This document shows, in pieces, positions 20,728-28,607 of a stretch of 42,315 nt of DNA. Below the pieces are notes generated by a model that saw only the letters and a program-made list of their open reading frames with translations, was not told the DNA's origin and ran no database searches. The position numbers and the translations under genes were made by a program. Position 1 is the stretch's first letter. Every line of letters starts with the position of its first letter. The stretch covers positions 1-42,315 of the forward strand of contig JANWYD010000028.1 in NCBI GenBank assembly GCA_025057155.1. The letters are read 5' to 3'. This DNA comes from Chloroflexaceae bacterium (GTDB lineage: Bacteria > Chloroflexota > Chloroflexia > Chloroflexales > Chloroflexaceae).

Positions 20728-20910
20728 AGTTCTTTGAGACATTAATCCGCTCCAGCCCGCGCTAGCGCGTTTCGCATCCCCTGGCCTGCGTCTTATGAGA
20801 ATTTACTGAGGCCTGATCGTAAATCAGAAGGCCGTATAGGGCTTGACCATAACGCGGCCACCGCCGATTCATTGTGGTTGCCACACCAGCTAACACGGAG
20901 GCAACCTTAA

Positions 20911-21855
20911 ATGATGGGACAGGAGTCGCTGCGTGTCACCCCGGTCAAGCTGGTTAGCCGCATTCCGATTCTACTGCCGCCCAGGCGTGGCCGTGGATGC
21001 CCGAAAATCTGTTCCTGCAAGCACTGGTGATCATATATCGTCCGCCACCTGCACATGCCCCACGAACTGTTCAGCATCCTGGCGCAGCCGACCGCTGAGA
21101 TGCGGCGGCTGTGCGCGTTGCGTCTCGTGGATGCGCGTTTTCCTGGCCGGCGTACATGGTAATGACGCCCGGCCGCCATCCCTGCCGGCTCGCCGGCCCA
21201 GATTGGCTGCCCGGAGCGCACCCCGGGTCGCCCTGCTCTAGCCGTGGGCCGCATATGGGCGCGCAGCAGCGATCATAGCACAGTGTTGCGCGTCCGCGGC
21301 GGCGTGTGGCATAAGCAAGACCGCGAAGCGCAGGTTGTGCCCCACACCTCAATGGATACGGAAGCCCACTAGACTAGGTTGGACTGGCATGGCTGGATCT
21401 ACGGCCGGAAACCGCATCTGGTCACCACCATGTGCTGCGGTCTGGATTCCTCTGGCGGCTGAGCTGACCGCTGCCAATGCGGCTGACAACACGCCGGCTC
21501 CAGGCCTGCCGCGGAAACTGCCGGCCGAGATGCGCTTCGCGTTGGGCAGCCAGCCCTGGGTGCAGCGCAGGGCCAGGTAGTCGTGACGATGCGGCGTGGC
21601 GCATACCTTCACACTGACCTGGAAGTGGACGTACATCGCATCTTGCATGCGGTGCGCTCTTAGGCTATCGAGAACCTGAACGAGCAGTTTAAGGGCATCT
21701 TCGATGGCCATGGGTAGACGCCGACCGAGGGCCTGCGCAACCCTCGCCGCCGGGCGCTCGGCGCAGTGTTTGTCTGCCAGTTGACGGTGTGGCGCTGCCA
21801 CCAGCATGGCCTGAACCTCCGCGTCGGCGTGAAAGCGTTTCTCAGAGCCGCCTAA
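20911..21855 (+). pseudogene. Degenerate IS4/IS5-type DDE transposase
   Basis: Fragments of one transposase can be read in shifting frames. They include R-H-L-H-M-P-H-E-L-F-S-I-L-A near 21050, R-G-G-V-W-H-K-Q-D-R-E-A and W-H-G-W-I-Y-G-R-K-P-H-L-V near 21290-21420, P-L-A-A-E-L-T-A-A-N-A-A-D-N near 21450, and [14 protein letters not shown] near 21670, ending A-F-L-R-A-A and TAA at 21853-21855. In-frame stops and at least two frameshifts are present. The G-W-x-Y-G-x-K-x-H-L and late Y/N-E-Q-x-K patterns are typical of IS4/IS5 DDE transposases. Clearly inactive; exact ends and inverted repeats were not identified. Confidence 0.7.
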
Positions 21856-21896
21856 GCATTTATGACCGGGCCTCAACTAGCCTGACGGCGCAACCG

Positions 21897-22160
21897 ATGA
21901 ACGGGCGGCGTGTACGCAAGACTCTCTCCTACTCCAAGCGGCAAGAAGCGCTGGGGGCGGCCTGCGCCTGGAAGGATTGGGTCTACAACCTCACCCGCAC
22001 TGTCGACACCCTCTCGATCCCCGATCGGGACGAGCAGGGACGTCGCCGCTAACGGCGGCAGAAGCTGGCGATGGAGACGGGTCGGACCGTCCACCGTCGG
22101 ACGATCACGGAACTCCTCATCCTCTCCACCGTTGTTGCCCCCAAACCGCTCAACACGTAA
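21897..22160 (+). pseudogene. IS1-like transposase C-terminal fragment
   Basis: The frame reads [15 protein letters not shown] then [15 protein letters not shown], a stop at 22050-22052, and then T-I-T-E-L-L-I-L-S-T-V-V-A-P-K-P-L-N-T and a final stop at 22158-22160. R-K-T-L-S-[FY]-S-K with W-x-W-V-Y-N-L-x-R resembles the C-terminal half of IS1-like transposases found in cyanobacteria and Chloroflexota; the family name is from memory. The N-terminal half is missing and an internal stop is present. Confidence 0.6.
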
Positions 22161-22363
22161 GGGGGAGGTTACCCGATGGCCTGTTACTGAACAAATTGGT
22201 GAAACTATTAACTTTTAACTAATACGATGAATATATATTTATAGAGTCAAGTCAAAGATCCGCTTGAAGGATGTATTTCTGTATGATATTCTAACTGAGG
22301 TTCTATCCTGCTCAATCAAGCTGGTAAGATCGCTAGAGACCTGCTGAAAGCAGAAGACCAACC

Positions 22364-22795
22364 ATGACAATAAAGATCAGTTACCTCTGGGTAACCATTA
22401 TCGCCATCTCGCTGGCAAGCGGACTGGGTGGGTGCATGCAATCTGCATCTAGCCGATCACGTGTTCTGATTGAGTATCACCGAAGCGGCGGGTTTGTCGG
22501 CCTCGATGATCGTCTCATCATCAGAGAGGATGGTGAAACAAGCCTGACCCGTAAGGAACGGCGTTTTAGCTTCACACTTGATCGCGCCACCGTGAACCAA
22601 CTTGCCGACCTCTTTACCACCGCCGGTTTCATGCAACTCCGTAAGGAGTACATGCCTCAGCGTGCAGGTCCCGATCTTTTCACTTACGTGGTGACCTACC
22701 GAGGTCATACAGTGCGAACCATGGACGGTGCTATTCCACCCGCGCTCGATCCAATTCTGGAGCAACTCGATCAGATCGTCGAGAGTCACCAGTAG
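22364..22795 (+). CDS. Emfourin-like lipoprotein, predicted M4-protease inhibitor
   Basis: A 143-residue lipoprotein. Residues 3-23 are hydrophobic and end in the lipobox L-G-G-C, with lipidated C24. Residues about 34-140 resemble emfourin, the protein inhibitor of protealysin-like M4 peptidases: an opening beta strand I-E-Y-H-R-S-G-G-F-V-G-L (S-G-G-F at 41-44), a helix with T-V-N-Q-L-A-D-L-F-T-T-A-G-F, the P-D-L-F-T-Y-V-V-T-Y strand, then T-V-R-T-M-D-G-A-I-P-P-A-L and a final helix. The next gene, 15 bp downstream, is an M4 peptidase, so the pair is a protease-inhibitor operon. Known emfourins are usually cytoplasmic and downstream of the protease; here the protein is lipid-anchored and upstream. 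The ribosome site is weak (AGAAG). Inhibitory function is inferred. Confidence 0.75.
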   Translation: MTIKISYLWVTIIAISLASGLGGCMQSASSRSRVLIEYHRSGGFVGLDDRLIIREDGETSLTRKERRFSFTLDRATVNQLADLFTTAGFMQLRKEYMPQRAGPDLFTYVVTYRGHTVRTMDGAIPPALDPILEQLDQIVESHQ

Positions 22796-22810
22796 TGCGA
22801 GGAGGCAACT

Positions 22811-24814
22811 ATGAAGAGGGTCGCCCTCATCGCTGCCACGCTGATGGCATCGGCGGTGTTGATCACCGCTGTGCCGGCGCAGTCCCAATCGCCTCGGGAT
22901 TCAGCGCTTCAACGCCTCAGTCAGGACGCCCATGGCGCCGAGTTGGAGATCACCTGGAATCCCGAGACAGGTACGCCAAGCTTTATTCGCGGGAACATTG
23001 CTCCGGCTGTGACGGGAGCGCAGGAGCAGGCAACACCGACGCTTAAGGCGCTGGCTGTGGTCGAGCGGTACGCTGATCTCCTGGGCATCGCGGATGCCGA
23101 GCGCGATCTCACCGTTGTGAAGGAAGAGACTGACGAGTTAGGGATGCACCACTTCCTCTTCCAACAGGTATATCGTGGCATTAACGTCTACGGCGGGACG
23201 GTGGCGGTCCACTTTGGCGCCGATGGTGAGACGGTAGTAGCCCTTAGCAATCAGTTCGTGCCTGACATTCATTTGACCGACACTCAGGCGCGTATTACGG
23301 CTGATCAGGCGCTGGCAGCCGCCCGTAAGGCTCTGCCGAATGGAGTGCTCGCTTCAGAAGTGCGGCTAGCAGTCTACCCCACTGCTGATCATCTTGCTGG
23401 CGCTCCGGCGGTTCTGGCCTGGCTGGTCGAACTCCGCGACGATGATCTCCCAGCGCGCAACCTGTATGTGATTGATGCGCTCAACGGGACCATTGTTGAA
23501 GTTCGGAGTCGCTTGTTTGAAGGCCGCATCCGGAATACATATGATGCTAGAAATCGGCGCAGTTTGCCAGGTACGCTGGTGCGCAACGAGGGACAGAATC
23601 CAACAGGGGATGCTGATGTGGATCACGCGCACGACTTTGCCGGCGCCACCTACGATTACTACCGCAACACCCATAACCGTGACAGCTTCAATAACCGGGG
23701 CGCACGAATGATCTCGACTGCAAATTATGGTCGAGGTTACCGGAACGCCTTCTGGAACGGCGAGCAAACGGTCTATGGTGACTATATGGCAGTCCTGGAT
23801 ATTGTTGCCCATGAGTGGACCCACGCCGTAACCGATCACTCGGCCGATCTCGAATACCGCTGGCAGTCAGGAGCGCTCAACGAGAGCTTTTCGGACATTT
23901 TCGCGGCAATGGTGGATCGGAATGACTGGCTGATAGGTGAGGATCTGCCACCATTCATTCTGGGCGGACGCGAGGGCGTCCGCGATCTCGCCAACCCCCC
24001 ACGCTTCGGGCAACCCGACCATACCCGCCATTGGTTAGAAACATGCGCCGACAGTGAAGGCGTGCATACCAACTCCGGCATCGTGAACAAGGCTTACTTT
24101 AATATCGCTCAGGCCATCGGCAAGGACAAGGCCGAGCGGATCTTTTACCGGGCTCTGACAGTCTACCTGCGCCCGAACTCCAGCCTGGAGGATGCCCGCG
24201 CTGCTGCATTACGGGCGACGCAGGATCTTTACAGAATAGATAGCGCTGAGTACCCCAAAGTTCGTGATGGCTTCAGCGCAGTGGGTCTGAACGGGCAATG
24301 GAGTCCGCGGCGTAACAATTGCACCTGTGCAGCGTCTGTCGCGCTAACGAACCAGGCCGTGTTTAGCGGGCCTCTGGCCGCCCTGGAGGCCGCCTCTACG
24401 CTGTATCGGTTCCGTGATCATATGCTAAATGCGACGGAGGCGGGCGAACATTACCGCGTGCTGTATGAGGAACATACCGGGCGGATCAGCGAGCTGCTGA
24501 TGCGGAACCCGGATCTGTGGACGGACAGCGCCCACCTGGTGCAGGCGGTGCTGCCAGGACTGAACGGTCTGATGGACGGACGGGGCGATCAACAGATCGT
24601 GACGCCACAACTGGTCAAGGATACCCTGGCGTTCCTCCACCGGCTGGCCCAGGCGGATCGCGAGGCAGGCGGCGGTCAACTGGCTAATACTATCGAGCGC
24701 GAACGGGCAGTGATTGATTGGAACCGACTGATCGGCATGACCTATGAGGAAGCCTGGCAGTATATTCAGACACGAATGGCAGGCAGCGTATATCTGCCAC
24801 TCGTGATGCGTTAG
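22811..24814 (+). CDS. Secreted M4 (thermolysin-family) metalloprotease
   Basis: 667 residues with an N-terminal signal peptide (A-L-I-A-A-T-L-M-A-S-A-V-L-I-T-A), FTP and PepSY-type propeptide regions (about 40-190), then the M4 catalytic domain. Zinc and catalytic residues are H334-E335-x-x-H338, E358 exactly 20 residues later in N-E-S-F-S-D, and D414/H419 in D-S-E-G-V-H-T-N-S-G, with thermolysin spacing throughout. From residue 531 (L-Y-R-F-R-D) a helical C-terminal domain of about 120 residues follows, then the tail G-S-V-Y-L-P-L-V-M-R. GGAGG is 5 nt before the ATG. It is co-transcribed with the emfourin-like gene. Function as an extracellular protease is well supported. Confidence 0.95.
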   Translation: MKRVALIAATLMASAVLITAVPAQSQSPRDSALQRLSQDAHGAELEITWNPETGTPSFIRGNIAPAVTGAQEQATPTLKALAVVERYADLLGIADAERDLTVVKEETDELGMHHFLFQQVYRGINVYGGTVAVHFGADGETVVALSNQFVPDIHLTDTQARITADQALAAARKALPNGVLASEVRLAVYPTADHLAGAPAVLAWLVELRDDDLPARNLYVIDALNGTIVEVRSRLFEGRIRNTYDARNRRSLPGTLVRNEGQNPTGDADVDHAHDFAGATYDYYRNTHNRDSFNNRGARMISTANYGRGYRNAFWNGEQTVYGDYMAVLDIVAHEWTHAVTDHSADLEYRWQSGALNESFSDIFAAMVDRNDWLIGEDLPPFILGGREGVRDLANPPRFGQPDHTRHWLETCADSEGVHTNSGIVNKAYFNIAQAIGKDKAERIFYRALTVYLRPNSSLEDARAAALRATQDLYRIDSAEYPKVRDGFSAVGLNGQWSPRRNNCTCAASVALTNQAVFSGPLAALEAASTLYRFRDHMLNATEAGEHYRVLYEEHTGRISELLMRNPDLWTDSAHLVQAVLPGLNGLMDGRGDQQIVTPQLVKDTLAFLHRLAQADREAGGGQLANTIERERAVIDWNRLIGMTYEEAWQYIQTRMAGSVYLPLVMR

Positions 24815-24823
24815 CGCTGATGC

Positions 24824-24869
24824 GATCGCCTGTGACTACGAAACTCTATAGTTTCCGTTACGGGCGATC
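24824..24869. terminator. Hairpin downstream of the protease gene
   Basis: GATCGCC (24824-24830) pairs with GGCGATC (24863-24869), and inside it GAAAC pairs with GTTTC around TCTATA. It lies 10 bp after the protease stop and overlaps the end of the minus-strand transposase relic, so it may be the protease operon terminator, a transposon end, or both. Confidence 0.45.
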
Positions 24870-25475
24870 AAACTCCCTCTCAGGAGGACTGCTCCCAGAA
24901 GGATTGAGGAGGTCGTCTCTATAAAAGTACGCCGCGGTCATACAAACCCGGTTGCATGTGACCGTTTCACCTCGTTTGAGTGTCAGGTCGCGGATTGCCG
25001 CTGGTTTCGCTGTTGCGAGTGAGTAGAACGTCTCGCGCAGTACGACACACGCAGTGCGAGCCTTGAGCTATGATAGCGGCTTGCCTAAACGTTCCGTTGA
25101 ACTCGTCACTGCCCAAGGTCGTTACGTCGGCCTCAACTGGAACCAGGGGAGTAAGCTGACCAAGCAACTCGCAGTGCAGCGTCTGCGGCACATGGCCTCG
25201 GTTCGCTTTGACTGCCATCCAAACGAGCGGCGGTGCTCGCCGCTAGTAGAGCACGCTAAGCATCAGGCATATCCGGCCACGTCTGGCGGTGCTGCCAGCG
25301 ATGACGAACACTAGCCCTTTACGCACGAGCAGGCTGAAGAGCACCTGAGTAACTGGCAACATCTAGCGCTTCACCGTCATCTCATCGTGCTTGAGGAAGC
25401 GCCGTAAGCGCATCACCGCGCTCTTATCACAGGCTCGACCACCAGGCGTGTGTTCGACGATGGCTATTCTGTCAT
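24858..25475 (-). pseudogene. Degenerate DDE transposase (IS4-like), minus strand
   Basis: Minus-strand reading gives pieces of an IS4-like transposase: F-S-L-L-V-R-K-G-L-V-F-V-I-A-G-S, then after an in-frame stop L-V-W-M-A-V-K-A-N-R-G-H-V-P-Q, L-V-P-V-E-A-D-V-T-T-L-G-S-D-E-F-N-G-T and H-C-V-C-R-T-A-R-D-V-L-L-T. The strand continues in the next frame (D-L-T-L-K-R-G-E-T-V-T-C-N-R-V-C-M-T) to a TAA at 24858-24860. A D-G-E-F-[DN]-G-T box is expected in the intact protein; here it is S-D-E-F-N-G-T. At least two internal stops and one frameshift make it inactive. Together with 20911-22160 it brackets the protease operon. Confidence 0.65.
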
Positions 25476-25550
25476 GGTTGGCACGTACTCCTTTCACCCC
25501 TCCTTTCCGAACATGTTTTCTGTACGGCAGTCAAAATAAGGACAAAACCC

Positions 25551-27023
25551 ATGAAGCGATACCTGAATTGGATCGCCTGGCTCTGCGTCGTCCTGCCAGG
25601 TCTCCTCATGGCGGTAGTGGGGTTGGCCCAGGAAGTAACCCTGACTTCGTCCACTGCTCGTCCAGCGATCCTTAGCGAAACTCTGCGGATCGGAGGGGGG
25701 AGCGACAAAAACGACCAGCGTGACACTGACATTTATCCTGCGATTGCGCATGATGGAAGGCGCTATCTAGTAGTATGGCTTTCGCCGCGCAATGCCTGGT
25801 CATCTTCAGACGGTCTGGATGTGTACGGTGTATTCCTCGATCAGAATGGCAGTCCGGTTGGCAATGAGTTCCGGATCTCCGACAGCAACACCGTGGCGCG
25901 CAGTGCACCTCCCTCTGTTGCCGCTGGCAACAATGAATTTGCAGTTGTATGGACAGTGCGTGGCAACCCGTGTCGGATCGCTGTCCAGCGTATCGCCGAC
26001 AGTTCGTCCCGCCCGGATAGGACGCTGGTTGAAGGCACAGGGCATCGGCATACGACCTCGCTAGTATACAATGCTACAAACCAGCGCTATGTACTGGCTT
26101 TTGTTGAGGGGGACGATTACCAGGCGCCGACCTTCCTGGGCGCTCAGACGAGCGACTGCGGCAATAATGCCTCGAGCACAAGTCGCATTCGAGCGCTGGA
26201 GTTTGACTTTAGCAGTGAGGGGGAGAGTCCGGTAATCAGGCGAGCTGCTGTTGATGTTTCCGCTGGCAGTAGAGGCGCCTTCCGGCCCCGTCTGGCGCTG
26301 AGCGCCAACCGGTATCTGGTGGTGTGGGAGGATCGGCGCGACGCGGGTGGACAAACGCATCGCTTTGATGTGTTCGCCCAGATCCTTGATGCAGATCTGA
26401 CGCGCATCGGGAACGAGATTCCGCTGGCAACAAACAATGACTATACCAATTATGGCACAACCACAACCTGGACTCCCAGACCCGTCGTTTCCGGGGGCGA
26501 GGGACGCTTCCAGGCATCCTGGTTTGAACGTAGGGAGGAAGAGGACGCGATAGTATGGTTCGTGCGGGGGCGAGTCGTTTCAAGCGATGGAGTAGCTGCA
26601 GGCAATCAATTTACGATAGCAGAAGTGCCTTTTGCCGAAGCGCATTCTGACCAGCCGCCCACCGGGTTTCTGGCAAGCGGGTACCTGGCCGGTATTCAAG
26701 AGTATCTGGTAGGGATCACGATCCATAGTGAAACTGTGTGGGGATACAAGAGCTTCGCGCTTGCCCAGAGAGTGAGTAAAGATGGACAGTTGATCCAGAT
26801 GAATGGCACAGTGCGATCCAGTCCTGGCGTGGGTGATGCGATAGACAATGATACTCGTGATCAGGTTTCTATAGCGCTAGCCATCGCTCCAACTCAGGCT
26901 GACGCAATGGCGGTGTATGCCAAACCCTTGGCCGGCAGGCCTGCACTGGATTACGACGTCTGGAGGGTGCGGATCCAGATAGGGAGTACTCGCACTGTCT
27001 ATTTCCCCACTATCCGTCGGTAG
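25551..27023 (+). CDS. Secreted beta-propeller-like repeat protein with Y-F-P tail
   Basis: 490 residues: an N-terminal signal peptide (L-C-V-V-L-P-G-L-L-M-A-V-V-G-L-A-Q), then several imperfect repeats of about 60-80 residues of the type Y-L-V-V-W-x-x-x-R followed by D-V-x-G/A-x-x-L-D and G-x-x-x-G-N-E, as in bacterial beta-propeller or sialidase-like secreted proteins. The end is T-R-T-V-Y-F-P-T-I-R-R. The repeats carry no catalytic motif that I recognise. ATG 25551 follows AAGGACAAAACCC. It sits just beyond the transposase relic and in the same direction as the M4 protease; the tail links it to the other secreted proteins of the window. Confidence 0.8.
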   Translation: MKRYLNWIAWLCVVLPGLLMAVVGLAQEVTLTSSTARPAILSETLRIGGGSDKNDQRDTDIYPAIAHDGRRYLVVWLSPRNAWSSSDGLDVYGVFLDQNGSPVGNEFRISDSNTVARSAPPSVAAGNNEFAVVWTVRGNPCRIAVQRIADSSSRPDRTLVEGTGHRHTTSLVYNATNQRYVLAFVEGDDYQAPTFLGAQTSDCGNNASSTSRIRALEFDFSSEGESPVIRRAAVDVSAGSRGAFRPRLALSANRYLVVWEDRRDAGGQTHRFDVFAQILDADLTRIGNEIPLATNNDYTNYGTTTTWTPRPVVSGGEGRFQASWFERREEEDAIVWFVRGRVVSSDGVAAGNQFTIAEVPFAEAHSDQPPTGFLASGYLAGIQEYLVGITIHSETVWGYKSFALAQRVSKDGQLIQMNGTVRSSPGVGDAIDNDTRDQVSIALAIAPTQADAMAVYAKPLAGRPALDYDVWRVRIQIGSTRTVYFPTIRR

Positions 27024-27042
27024 GATCTGACAACGAGAGCGA

Positions 27043-27079
27043 AGAGGCCTGAAGTATGCAATCGGCGCCTCAGGCCTCT
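27043..27079 (+). terminator. Hairpin after the repeat-protein gene
   Basis: Arms AGAGGCCTGA (27043-27052) and TCAGGCCTCT (27070-27079) pair perfectly over 10 bp around a 17-nt loop, 20 bp after the stop at 27023. No T-tract follows. Confidence 0.5.
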
Positions 27080-27446
27080 GAAGTTCATGTAGGTGATGAT
27101 TCCATACTGACAATCCGGCGAGGACGCATAGCGGAGCATGCGCATTGTCTGTTGCTTCGCCTGCTTTGCTTCGTCACCTTCAGCTTCTGGATCCTTGTCG
27201 GTAAATTGGGCGTCGCCCATGAAGATACCCTCTTCGCTGGCGCTCTCGCCGCTCTGTGCTCTATCACCTCCACAATCGCCGATGAGCCGTGCGTCAGAGC
27301 CTGCCTCAGTCTACCACTGCGAGGGGCGTTTTGTCGCGCTAGGACGCGCTAGAGTCTGTCAACCTGCGCTCTGACCCGCTTCGTTGGAATAGTAGAGGCA
27401 CACCCGGTTCCTCTCTGCCCGCGCCGGTCGGGAAACAGCAATCCCA
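27080..27446. other. Gap of about 370 bp, no supported gene
   Basis: A 98-codon plus-strand frame (27056-27352) starts inside the terminator hairpin, lacks a ribosome site and resembles no family, so I do not call it. Several shorter frames look like chance. It separates a plus-strand gene from the minus-strand kinase at 27447, i.e. a convergent junction. Confidence 0.4.
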
Positions 27447-28607
27447 TCACCCCAGGGGCAGGCTGAGCCGCGCGGTGGTGCCCTGTCCGGGCGTGCTGGC
27501 AAACTCCAGGCGTCCGCCGTGGCGTTCAACGATGCCCATGCTAACGGCGATCCCCAGCCCGATGCCGGCGCCAACCGGCCGGGTGGTGAAGAATGGCTCC
27601 CCCAGGCGCGCCAGGGTTGCCTCGTCCATGCCTACTCCCGTGTCCACAATCGTAATCACCGCCCGGTCGTTCTCCCGCGCGGTGCTGATCGAGACCGTGC
27701 CGCTCTCCGGAATGGCCTGAATGGCATTTGTGAGCAGGTTGAGCACGACCTGGTTGATCTGACCCGGGGCGCACACCACCGGCGGCAGCGGGCCGTAGTC
27801 TTCAACGATGGTCACTCCGGGCGGGCAGAGGGTGCGGGCGATGCGCACGGTGGCGGCCAGGCTGGCATTCAAATCGGCGGCCTGGACGGTCGGGCTATCG
27901 GGGCGGGCGAAGCTCCGCAGGTCGCGCACGATGCCGGCGATGCGCTCAAGACCCTCCCGGCTCTCGGCCAGGGCGTCGGCGAGATCCTCAGCCAGATCGG
28001 GATCGGGGCTGGCAGCGGCAAGAGCGGGCAACTGCTCGGCCAGGAACTCCAGATTGGCGCTGACAAAGCCCAGGGGCGTATTGAGTTCGTGGGCCACGCC
28101 GGCGACGAGCTGGCCCATGGCGCGTAGCTTCTCCGAGCGCACCAGTTGGGCCTGGGCGTTCTTCAGGTCGGCGTGGGCGCGTTCGAGTTGCAGCAGGGCG
28201 CCCTCCAGTTGCTGATTGGCAGCGGCGAGTTGCGCGGCCAGCGATACTGCTGCGGTCAGCGGCTGGCCGATGGCCGCGACGGCGAAGCGCGCGGCGGGTT
28301 CGGAACGCCAGCGCCAGGCAGTGTAACTTACCGGCAGCGGCGGGGCGTCGGTCTGGGGGTGATACAACTCCCAGTCATGGGCGGCTCCCTGGGTGAGCGC
28401 CTCGGCGATCATCAGCGCAGCCTTCTCGCGGCTGAAGGGGTCAACGACTTCTACGAAGGGCAGGCCGATGAGCGCGTCCGCGGGACGGCCGTAGAGCCGC
28501 GCGGCAGCCAGGTTCAGCGCCAGCACCATCCCCGCGCCGTCAAGCGCGACGAAGGGCAGCGTCGCCTGGGCAAGCATCGGGTCAAGGGAACGCGGGCGAC
28601 TGCTCAT
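27447..28607 (-). CDS. PAS-containing sensor histidine kinase
   Basis: 386 residues with no membrane helix. A PAS-like domain (about 12-115), a coiled coil (120-160; L-E-R-A-H-A-D-L-K-N-A-Q-A-Q-L-V-R-S-E-K) and HisKA with phospho-acceptor H173 in V-A-H-E-L-N-T-P-L-G are followed by HATPase_c with N-box N-L-L-T-N-A-I-Q-A-I, D-T-G-V-G-M and G-I-G-L-G-I. The H-E-L-N-T-P-L-G form marks the HPK4-like class of soluble kinases. Its ATG overlaps the stop codon of the response regulator gene upstream (ATGA, 28604-28607), so the two are translationally coupled and likely partners. Confidence 0.92.
   Translation of the reverse strand: MSSRPRSLDPMLAQATLPFVALDGAGMVLALNLAAARLYGRPADALIGLPFVEVVDPFSREKAALMIAEALTQGAAHDWELYHPQTDAPPLPVSYTAWRWRSEPAARFAVAAIGQPLTAAVSLAAQLAAANQQLEGALLQLERAHADLKNAQAQLVRSEKLRAMGQLVAGVAHELNTPLGFVSANLEFLAEQLPALAAASPDPDLAEDLADALAESREGLERIAGIVRDLRSFARPDSPTVQAADLNASLAATVRIARTLCPPGVTIVEDYGPLPPVVCAPGQINQVVLNLLTNAIQAIPESGTVSISTARENDRAVITIVDTGVGMDEATLARLGEPFFTTRPVGAGIGLGIAVSMGIVERHGGRLEFASTPGQGTTARLSLPLG

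Follow-up and report, generated by a model that had tools for sequence, protein, structure and literature searches.

Within the window, by which we mean the whole stretch of 42,315 nucleotides that was analysed, three genes on the forward strand form a cassette. A gene for an emfourin-like predicted lipoprotein is followed by one for an M4 (thermolysin-like) protease precursor and by a third for a secreted-looking protein. Their positions, and that of the insert that carries them, are collected in Table 1. No convincing promoter was found upstream of the lipoprotein-M4 pair, nor was a convincing terminator or a repeat at the ends of the insert.

Table 1. Features of the cassette, in window positions
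Feature	Position	Strand	Basis
Emfourin-like predicted lipoprotein, 143 aa	22364..22795	+	ORF; Pfam Emfourin and DUF6438; AF2 model
C24 codon, predicted lipidation site, lipobox AISLASGLGGC	22433..22435	+	Regex match
D104 codon, near-invariant Asp, candidate zinc ligand	22673..22675	+	Conservation; ligand role inferred from emfourin mechanism
15-bp gap; AGGAGG at 22800-22805 is the likely ribosome-binding site for the protease	22796..22810	+	Read from sequence
M4 (thermolysin-like) protease precursor, 667 aa	22811..24814	+	Pfam domains; thermolysin alignment
HEWTH zinc motif, H334-H338 of the M4	23810..23824	+	Alignment with thermolysin
M4 C-terminal region, residues 497-667, ending VYLPLVMR	24299..24811	+	No Pfam family at E ≤ 0.1
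Third cassette gene, 490-aa secreted-looking protein, ending VYFPTIRR	25551..27023	+	Relatives directly 3' of M4 in L098, L049, L052
Insert of ~6.65 kb carrying the cassette	20730..27382	.	Flanking genes adjacent in three congeners; GC

The genes of the cassette and the insert

In a Pfam scan, the 143-aa protein matches Emfourin (PF20242) at 1.4e-7 over residues 71-135, with 32.2 bits against a cut-off of 27, so that the emfourin-resembling domain described in an earlier note on this DNA is borne out at the level of the family. The fit to DUF6438 (PF20033) nearly equals it (5.3e-7, 30.3 bits against a cut-off of 30, residues 62-138). Five M4-linked relatives were scanned as well; three lie under the Emfourin cut-off of 27 (26.2, 26.1 and 21.9 bits) and two well over it (52.0 and 51.3). 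A PDB sequence search gave no significant match with the window protein or with alignment A3, and a canonical family relative, L032, matches the solved emfourin 6zyg at 4.1e-5. For conservation and tree building, rows that had fewer than 80 residues or contained unknown letters were removed, and the remaining 114 were cut to 62 by near-identity. The S-G-G-F, F-T-Y and D-G-A-I-P-P stretches that had been picked out by eye are present, and G42 (60/62), G43 (59/62), D104 (61/62), Y108 (58/62) and P125 (57/62) are near-invariant among these rows; D104 is kept in all 24 rows of the cytoplasmic type. The lipobox proposed at C24 was recovered by a regular expression, as AISLASGLGGC ending at that cysteine; this lipoprotein call and the lipobox counts below are regex matches.

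The second gene encodes FTP, PepSY, Peptidase_M4 and Peptidase_M4_C domains (Pfam), and its product matches the thermolysin precursor 5a3y at 1.6e-71. In an alignment with thermolysin, H334-E-W-T-H338, E358, D414 and H419 fall on the corresponding residues, and so do Y349 and the N-A-F-W stretch; in thermolysin these residues have catalytic roles. The description of a complete M4 protease starting 15 bp after the lipoprotein gene is thereby upheld. Its N-terminus is signal-like as judged by eye, which agrees with the signal peptide that had been ascribed to it. The last ~170 residues match no Pfam family up to E 0.1, and the very end scores 11.7 bits against the putative YLP-box sorting motif NF050076, below the cut-off of 15. 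A C-terminal end of the form VY[LFVM]P, which resembles this putative motif, is common to the window M4, the third-gene product and proteins in L034, L035, L049, L052, L111 and L128.

The protein of the third gene has no significant match in Pfam, NCBIfam, the PDB (single and profile searches) or PADLOC. Relatives of the gene lie directly downstream of an M4 gene in L098 (51% identity), G039 (39%) and G040 (40%). Among the 158 genomes of the class that were surveyed, the own genome included, it occurs in three, each time with the lipoprotein-M4 pair; it also occurs in L098, a Chloroflexi MAG.

The genes that flank the cassette are direct neighbours in the congeners G025, G026 and G027, where they stand 15 to 135 bp apart as measured by the ends of the protein matches. 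In a fourth congener, G024, they lie on separate contigs, so all three testable congeners are without the insert. GC is 0.51-0.60 over 22000-27499 and ~0.64 over 21000-21999; outside it is mostly 0.61-0.69, with one interval at 0.56. None of the four small ORFs at 20907-22218, also in the insert, matches a Pfam family up to E 0.1. The insert with its three-gene cassette was probably acquired; loss of the region from the congeners is the less likely alternative.

Recurrence of the pair and other settings of the family

Across the 158 genomes, Emfourin matches were found in 38, relatives of the window lipoprotein in 32 and M4_C matches in 57. There were 45 Emfourin match rows, of which 37 were read in 36 regions and 8 weak ones were left out; our own profile did not recover the two rows read in G019 and G109. 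The 62 rows fall into four settings, A to D, assigned by genomic context. A same-strand M4 gene lies within ~2 kb of 32 of them (11 of type A, 20 of the cytoplasmic type and 1 canonical).

In type A, the emfourin-like gene stands directly upstream of a same-strand M4 gene. This order was found at 11 non-redundant places in Chloroflexota, the window among them (the others are L098, G001, G007, G008, G010, G011, G012, G039, G040 and G068), so the earlier note's suggestion of looking for the pair elsewhere in this phylum was rewarded. The G011 contig holds just the start of the M4 gene beside the emfourin-like gene, and a frameshift splits the M4 gene in G039 and the emfourin gene in G068. Between the window and L098, the emfourin-like proteins are 56% and the M4s 55% identical. 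The lipobox expression, which was searched in the part before the domain in emfourin-like rows and in the first 60 residues of control ORFs, is positive in 9/11 type A, 17/24 type B, 0/24 type C and 0/3 type D rows, and in 42/1659 other ORFs.

The genome G006, a single contig of the genus Chloroflexus, to which G008 also belongs, can be aligned on either flank with the loci of G007 and G008, and the M4 gene in between is absent. At this site, which holds the M4 pair in related species, G006 keeps a remnant of the emfourin lipoprotein gene (L041 6981-7492) broken into two frames by a frameshift, and no M4_C match at 1e-5 was found anywhere in the genome. Because this gene order is found 11 times and the remnant has decayed where the M4 is missing, a chance neighbourhood of lipoprotein and M4 was rejected. 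The protease can exist without the emfourin-like gene, as in G032, whose M4 shares 55% identity with the G001 enzyme and has none found nearby.

Type B comprises the 24 of 62 rows with no same-strand M4 found nearby, many of them viewed with ~1.5 kb of flank per side and the G006 remnant counted among them. The emfourin-like family is therefore not used only for neighbouring M4s. In L110 (7740-13654, Kribbella monticola), which is of this type, an emfourin-like lipoprotein gene faces two M4 genes on the opposite strand ~1.5 kb off. Relatives 36% identical to the window lipoprotein occur in the Methanomicrobiales archaea L099 and L100, with a lipobox by regex in L099 and none in L100; no M4 was found within the regions read of these two loci. 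In the plasmid collection, one weak place was found, in an 11.9-Mb record of Nonomuraea gerenzanensis.

Type C consists of cytoplasmic-type relatives downstream of a large M4 gene, which lies 1.0-2.0 kb upstream in 20 of the 24 rows. The intervening genes were read in one locus of this type, L054 (7666-12746, G000:C3), where the own genome has a second M4 cluster of an export-like M4, PrsW-like and PsbP-like membrane proteins (the latter just under its cut-off) and a cytoplasmic-type emfourin-like protein. That an exported protease should have its inhibitor in the cytoplasm is odd. In G061, L039 3-347 holds a partial, weakly matching gene for an emfourin-like lipoprotein (21.5 bits) that is truncated at the contig end and directed away from the type C cluster's M4. 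The poorly resolved tree, which has few columns, places type C in one group and type A in two parts mixed with type B rows.

Type D is the canonical arrangement. In the family relative L032, a canonical emfourin follows a protealysin-like M4 by 4 bp, and the window arrangement is therefore really different; the view that an inhibitor gene placed before its protease departs from known emfourins was thus well founded. In an Acidobacteria MAG (L103 7653-8348), a short canonical emfourin and a longer emfourin-like gene whose product has a signal-like N-terminus stand in tandem, with no M4 found in the locus. The literature covered, to which the emfourin discovery (2021) and NMR-structure papers did not belong, contained no description of a lipobox emfourin upstream of a secreted-type M4.

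Predicted fold of the emfourin-like domain

An AF2 model of residues 24-143 (22433-22792), built from 15 alignment rows, has a mean pLDDT of 90.9 and the secondary structure order ββββαββα. With Foldseek, its nine top PDB matches all come from Mago nashi complex entries (E 4.4e-5 to 2.0e-3), with a TM of 0.51-0.60 by query length. With VIA-align, Mago nashi is matched at Z 11.8 over 109 residues with an rmsd of 3.0, and the best unrelated entry among the matches listed has Z 5.2. Mago nashi presumably has the same strand and helix order as the model. The solved emfourin 6zyg is absent among the 50 matches listed by VIA-align, which is not counted as proof of a different fold.

The short canonical emfourin of L103 (Emfourin 39.5 bits; model pLDDT 78.9) was also modelled. 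In VIA, Mago again comes first (Z 7.8), followed by 6zyg (Z 4.9, rmsd 6.5, 18% identity) and SSI-type inhibitors (3.8-4.8). With Foldseek, no match reaches E 0.001 or better, and Mago ranks 12th (E 0.11) behind sermetstatin and others. For this model, a common arrangement may suffice to give Z 7.8, and the rest of its modelling alignment consists of longer, mostly exported relatives that may pull it towards their shape. The fold check named in the earlier note thus came out divided: the canonical relative does list 6zyg, whereas the window model is best matched by Mago nashi and does not have 6zyg among the 50 matches listed.

A search for the same link in sequence was unsuccessful. When the window protein was scanned against Pfam up to E 10, with the HMMER filters on, which drop most weak matches, there was no row for Mago (PF02792). 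Across the 158 genomes, PF02792 gives 11 weak matches, none above the cut-off and none at an emfourin-like place found by the survey. The hhalign comparison of the emfourin-like profile with Mago scores 18.9 (probability 3.8%); none of 300 column shuffles reaches this value, and a reversed Mago scores 19.0. As these tests gave no support over the controls, only a resemblance of fold to Mago is claimed.

The models suggest that emfourins may have a Mago-type fold, the canonical ones minus one hairpin, although for the canonical form the suggestion is weak. It is also conceivable, if rather doubtful, that emfourin-like proteins and Mago share the fold by descent, so that the exported, longer ββββαββα form would be the older one, canonical emfourin would have lost the hairpin, and Mago would have arisen from such a prokaryotic protein. 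We rate the Mago-like fold suggested by the model as the boldest lead of this work and its meaning as the least certain part. No mention of a likeness between the emfourin and Mago folds was found in the literature covered, outside of which the emfourin NMR-structure paper falls. Should the likeness reflect descent, it would offer a prokaryotic lead on the origin of a core protein of the exon junction complex, and we know of no earlier one.

Proposed function and comparison with known systems

The reading that we favour, and hold to be reasonably probable, is that the locus is a protease cassette, probably acquired, whose membrane-tethered M4 inhibitor serves self-protection; binding of the inhibitor to the protease and inhibition are predicted. 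Emfourin has been described as inhibiting protealysin and thermolysin, binding protealysin 1:1 at the active-site region and being encoded with it (PMC9505478). On this model, the genes of the cassette would be transcribed together and, with the inhibitor gene first in order, the inhibitor would be made before the enzyme. The first product would be exported, lipidated at C24 and held at the membrane's outer face, the second would be exported as a precursor and mature outside, and the third would be a secreted partner. The tethered inhibitor would bind the active site of the mature M4, the loop of D104 probably reaching the zinc and the S-G-G loop lying beside it. It would thereby shield the envelope of the producer after removal of the propeptide, and enzyme released to a distance would stay active.

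According to the emfourin NMR paper, an aspartate reportedly reaches the zinc and a hydrophobic loop is said to fill the substrate site. We infer that D104 is this aspartate because it is kept in all but one of the 62 rows and because of this emfourin mechanism. Chloroflexus and related bacteria are commonly regarded as lacking an outer membrane.

The lipoprotein might instead be a membrane-tethered folding or tethering factor, in the manner of lipase foldases, that holds or helps the M4 at the surface and is not mainly an inhibitor. The gene is encoded first beside an export-like precursor and conserved with it, and binding without inhibition would fit the same genetics. We nevertheless consider this unlikely: the M4 already has FTP and PepSY propeptide domains, which normally provide the folding help in this family, an inhibitor gave the Pfam family its name, and relatives exist with no M4 found nearby.

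Little probability is also given to the idea that the M4 and the third protein act on other cells, with the lipoprotein as the immunity protein. A set of three genes on an insert that three congeners lack would suit such an antagonism module, and an immunity role of emfourin towards protealysin has been proposed (PMC9505478). Against it, no delivery system or toxin domain was recognised, the M4 domains are ordinary, and there was no match in PADLOC, which covers anti-phage defence only. It differs from self-protection mainly in the target. That the lipoprotein should be a surface protein of the DUF6438 type whose function is unrelated and whose place beside the protease is happenstance is very improbable: it clears the DUF6438 cut-off, and 24 of the 62 relatives have no same-strand M4 found adjacent, but the same order occurs 11 times, in two parts of the poorly resolved tree, and the remnant has decayed where the M4 is missing.

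It is usually the propeptide that prevents a secreted protease from harming its maker. If the self-protection reading is true, a lipid-anchored inhibitor encoded before the protease would be a different safeguard, one that protects the surface only and leaves the released enzyme active. Emfourins would then be extended from intracellular protealysins to exported enzymes of the thermolysin type, a function would be suggested for many uncharacterised lipoproteins with an emfourin-like domain, and tools against thermolysin-type proteases might be gained.

The closest known system is emfourin itself (M4in, the protealysin inhibitor of Serratia proteamaculans; PF20242, 6zyg), which the window protein resembles in its Pfam match, the conserved G-G loop and Asp, and the M4 gene partner. 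The prototype from S. proteamaculans reportedly has no export signal, and its gene is said to stand after that of a protealysin-type protease. The window protein departs from it in the lipobox, in the position of its gene before that of the M4 and, in the model, in an extra beta hairpin relative to the short canonical relative. The partners differ too, being an intracellular, short-propeptide protealysin in the prototype and an FTP/PepSY precursor here. The lipobox and the place before an FTP/PepSY M4 are departures from traits of the prototype, not of the Pfam family. DUF6438 is matched just over its cut-off across a similar stretch; its Pfam entry gives no function, and we know of none.

Mago nashi, of the eukaryotic exon junction complex, is alike in fold to the window model and shows no sequence similarity to it over controls. 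The SSI family (sermetstatin, SSTI) is a different family, some members of which inhibit metalloproteases. Its weak fold likeness is to the canonical relative in L103, at Z values below the level that would mean more than a common arrangement; the snapalysin complex 4hx3, an SSI-type inhibitor with a metalloprotease, is among the Foldseek matches of that model. On the enzyme side, the window M4 is like thermolysin, bacillolysin and aureolysin in its active-site residues and its FTP and PepSY propeptide, and differs from these M4s by its C-terminal region of ~170 residues with a YLP-like end and by the adjacent emfourin-like gene.
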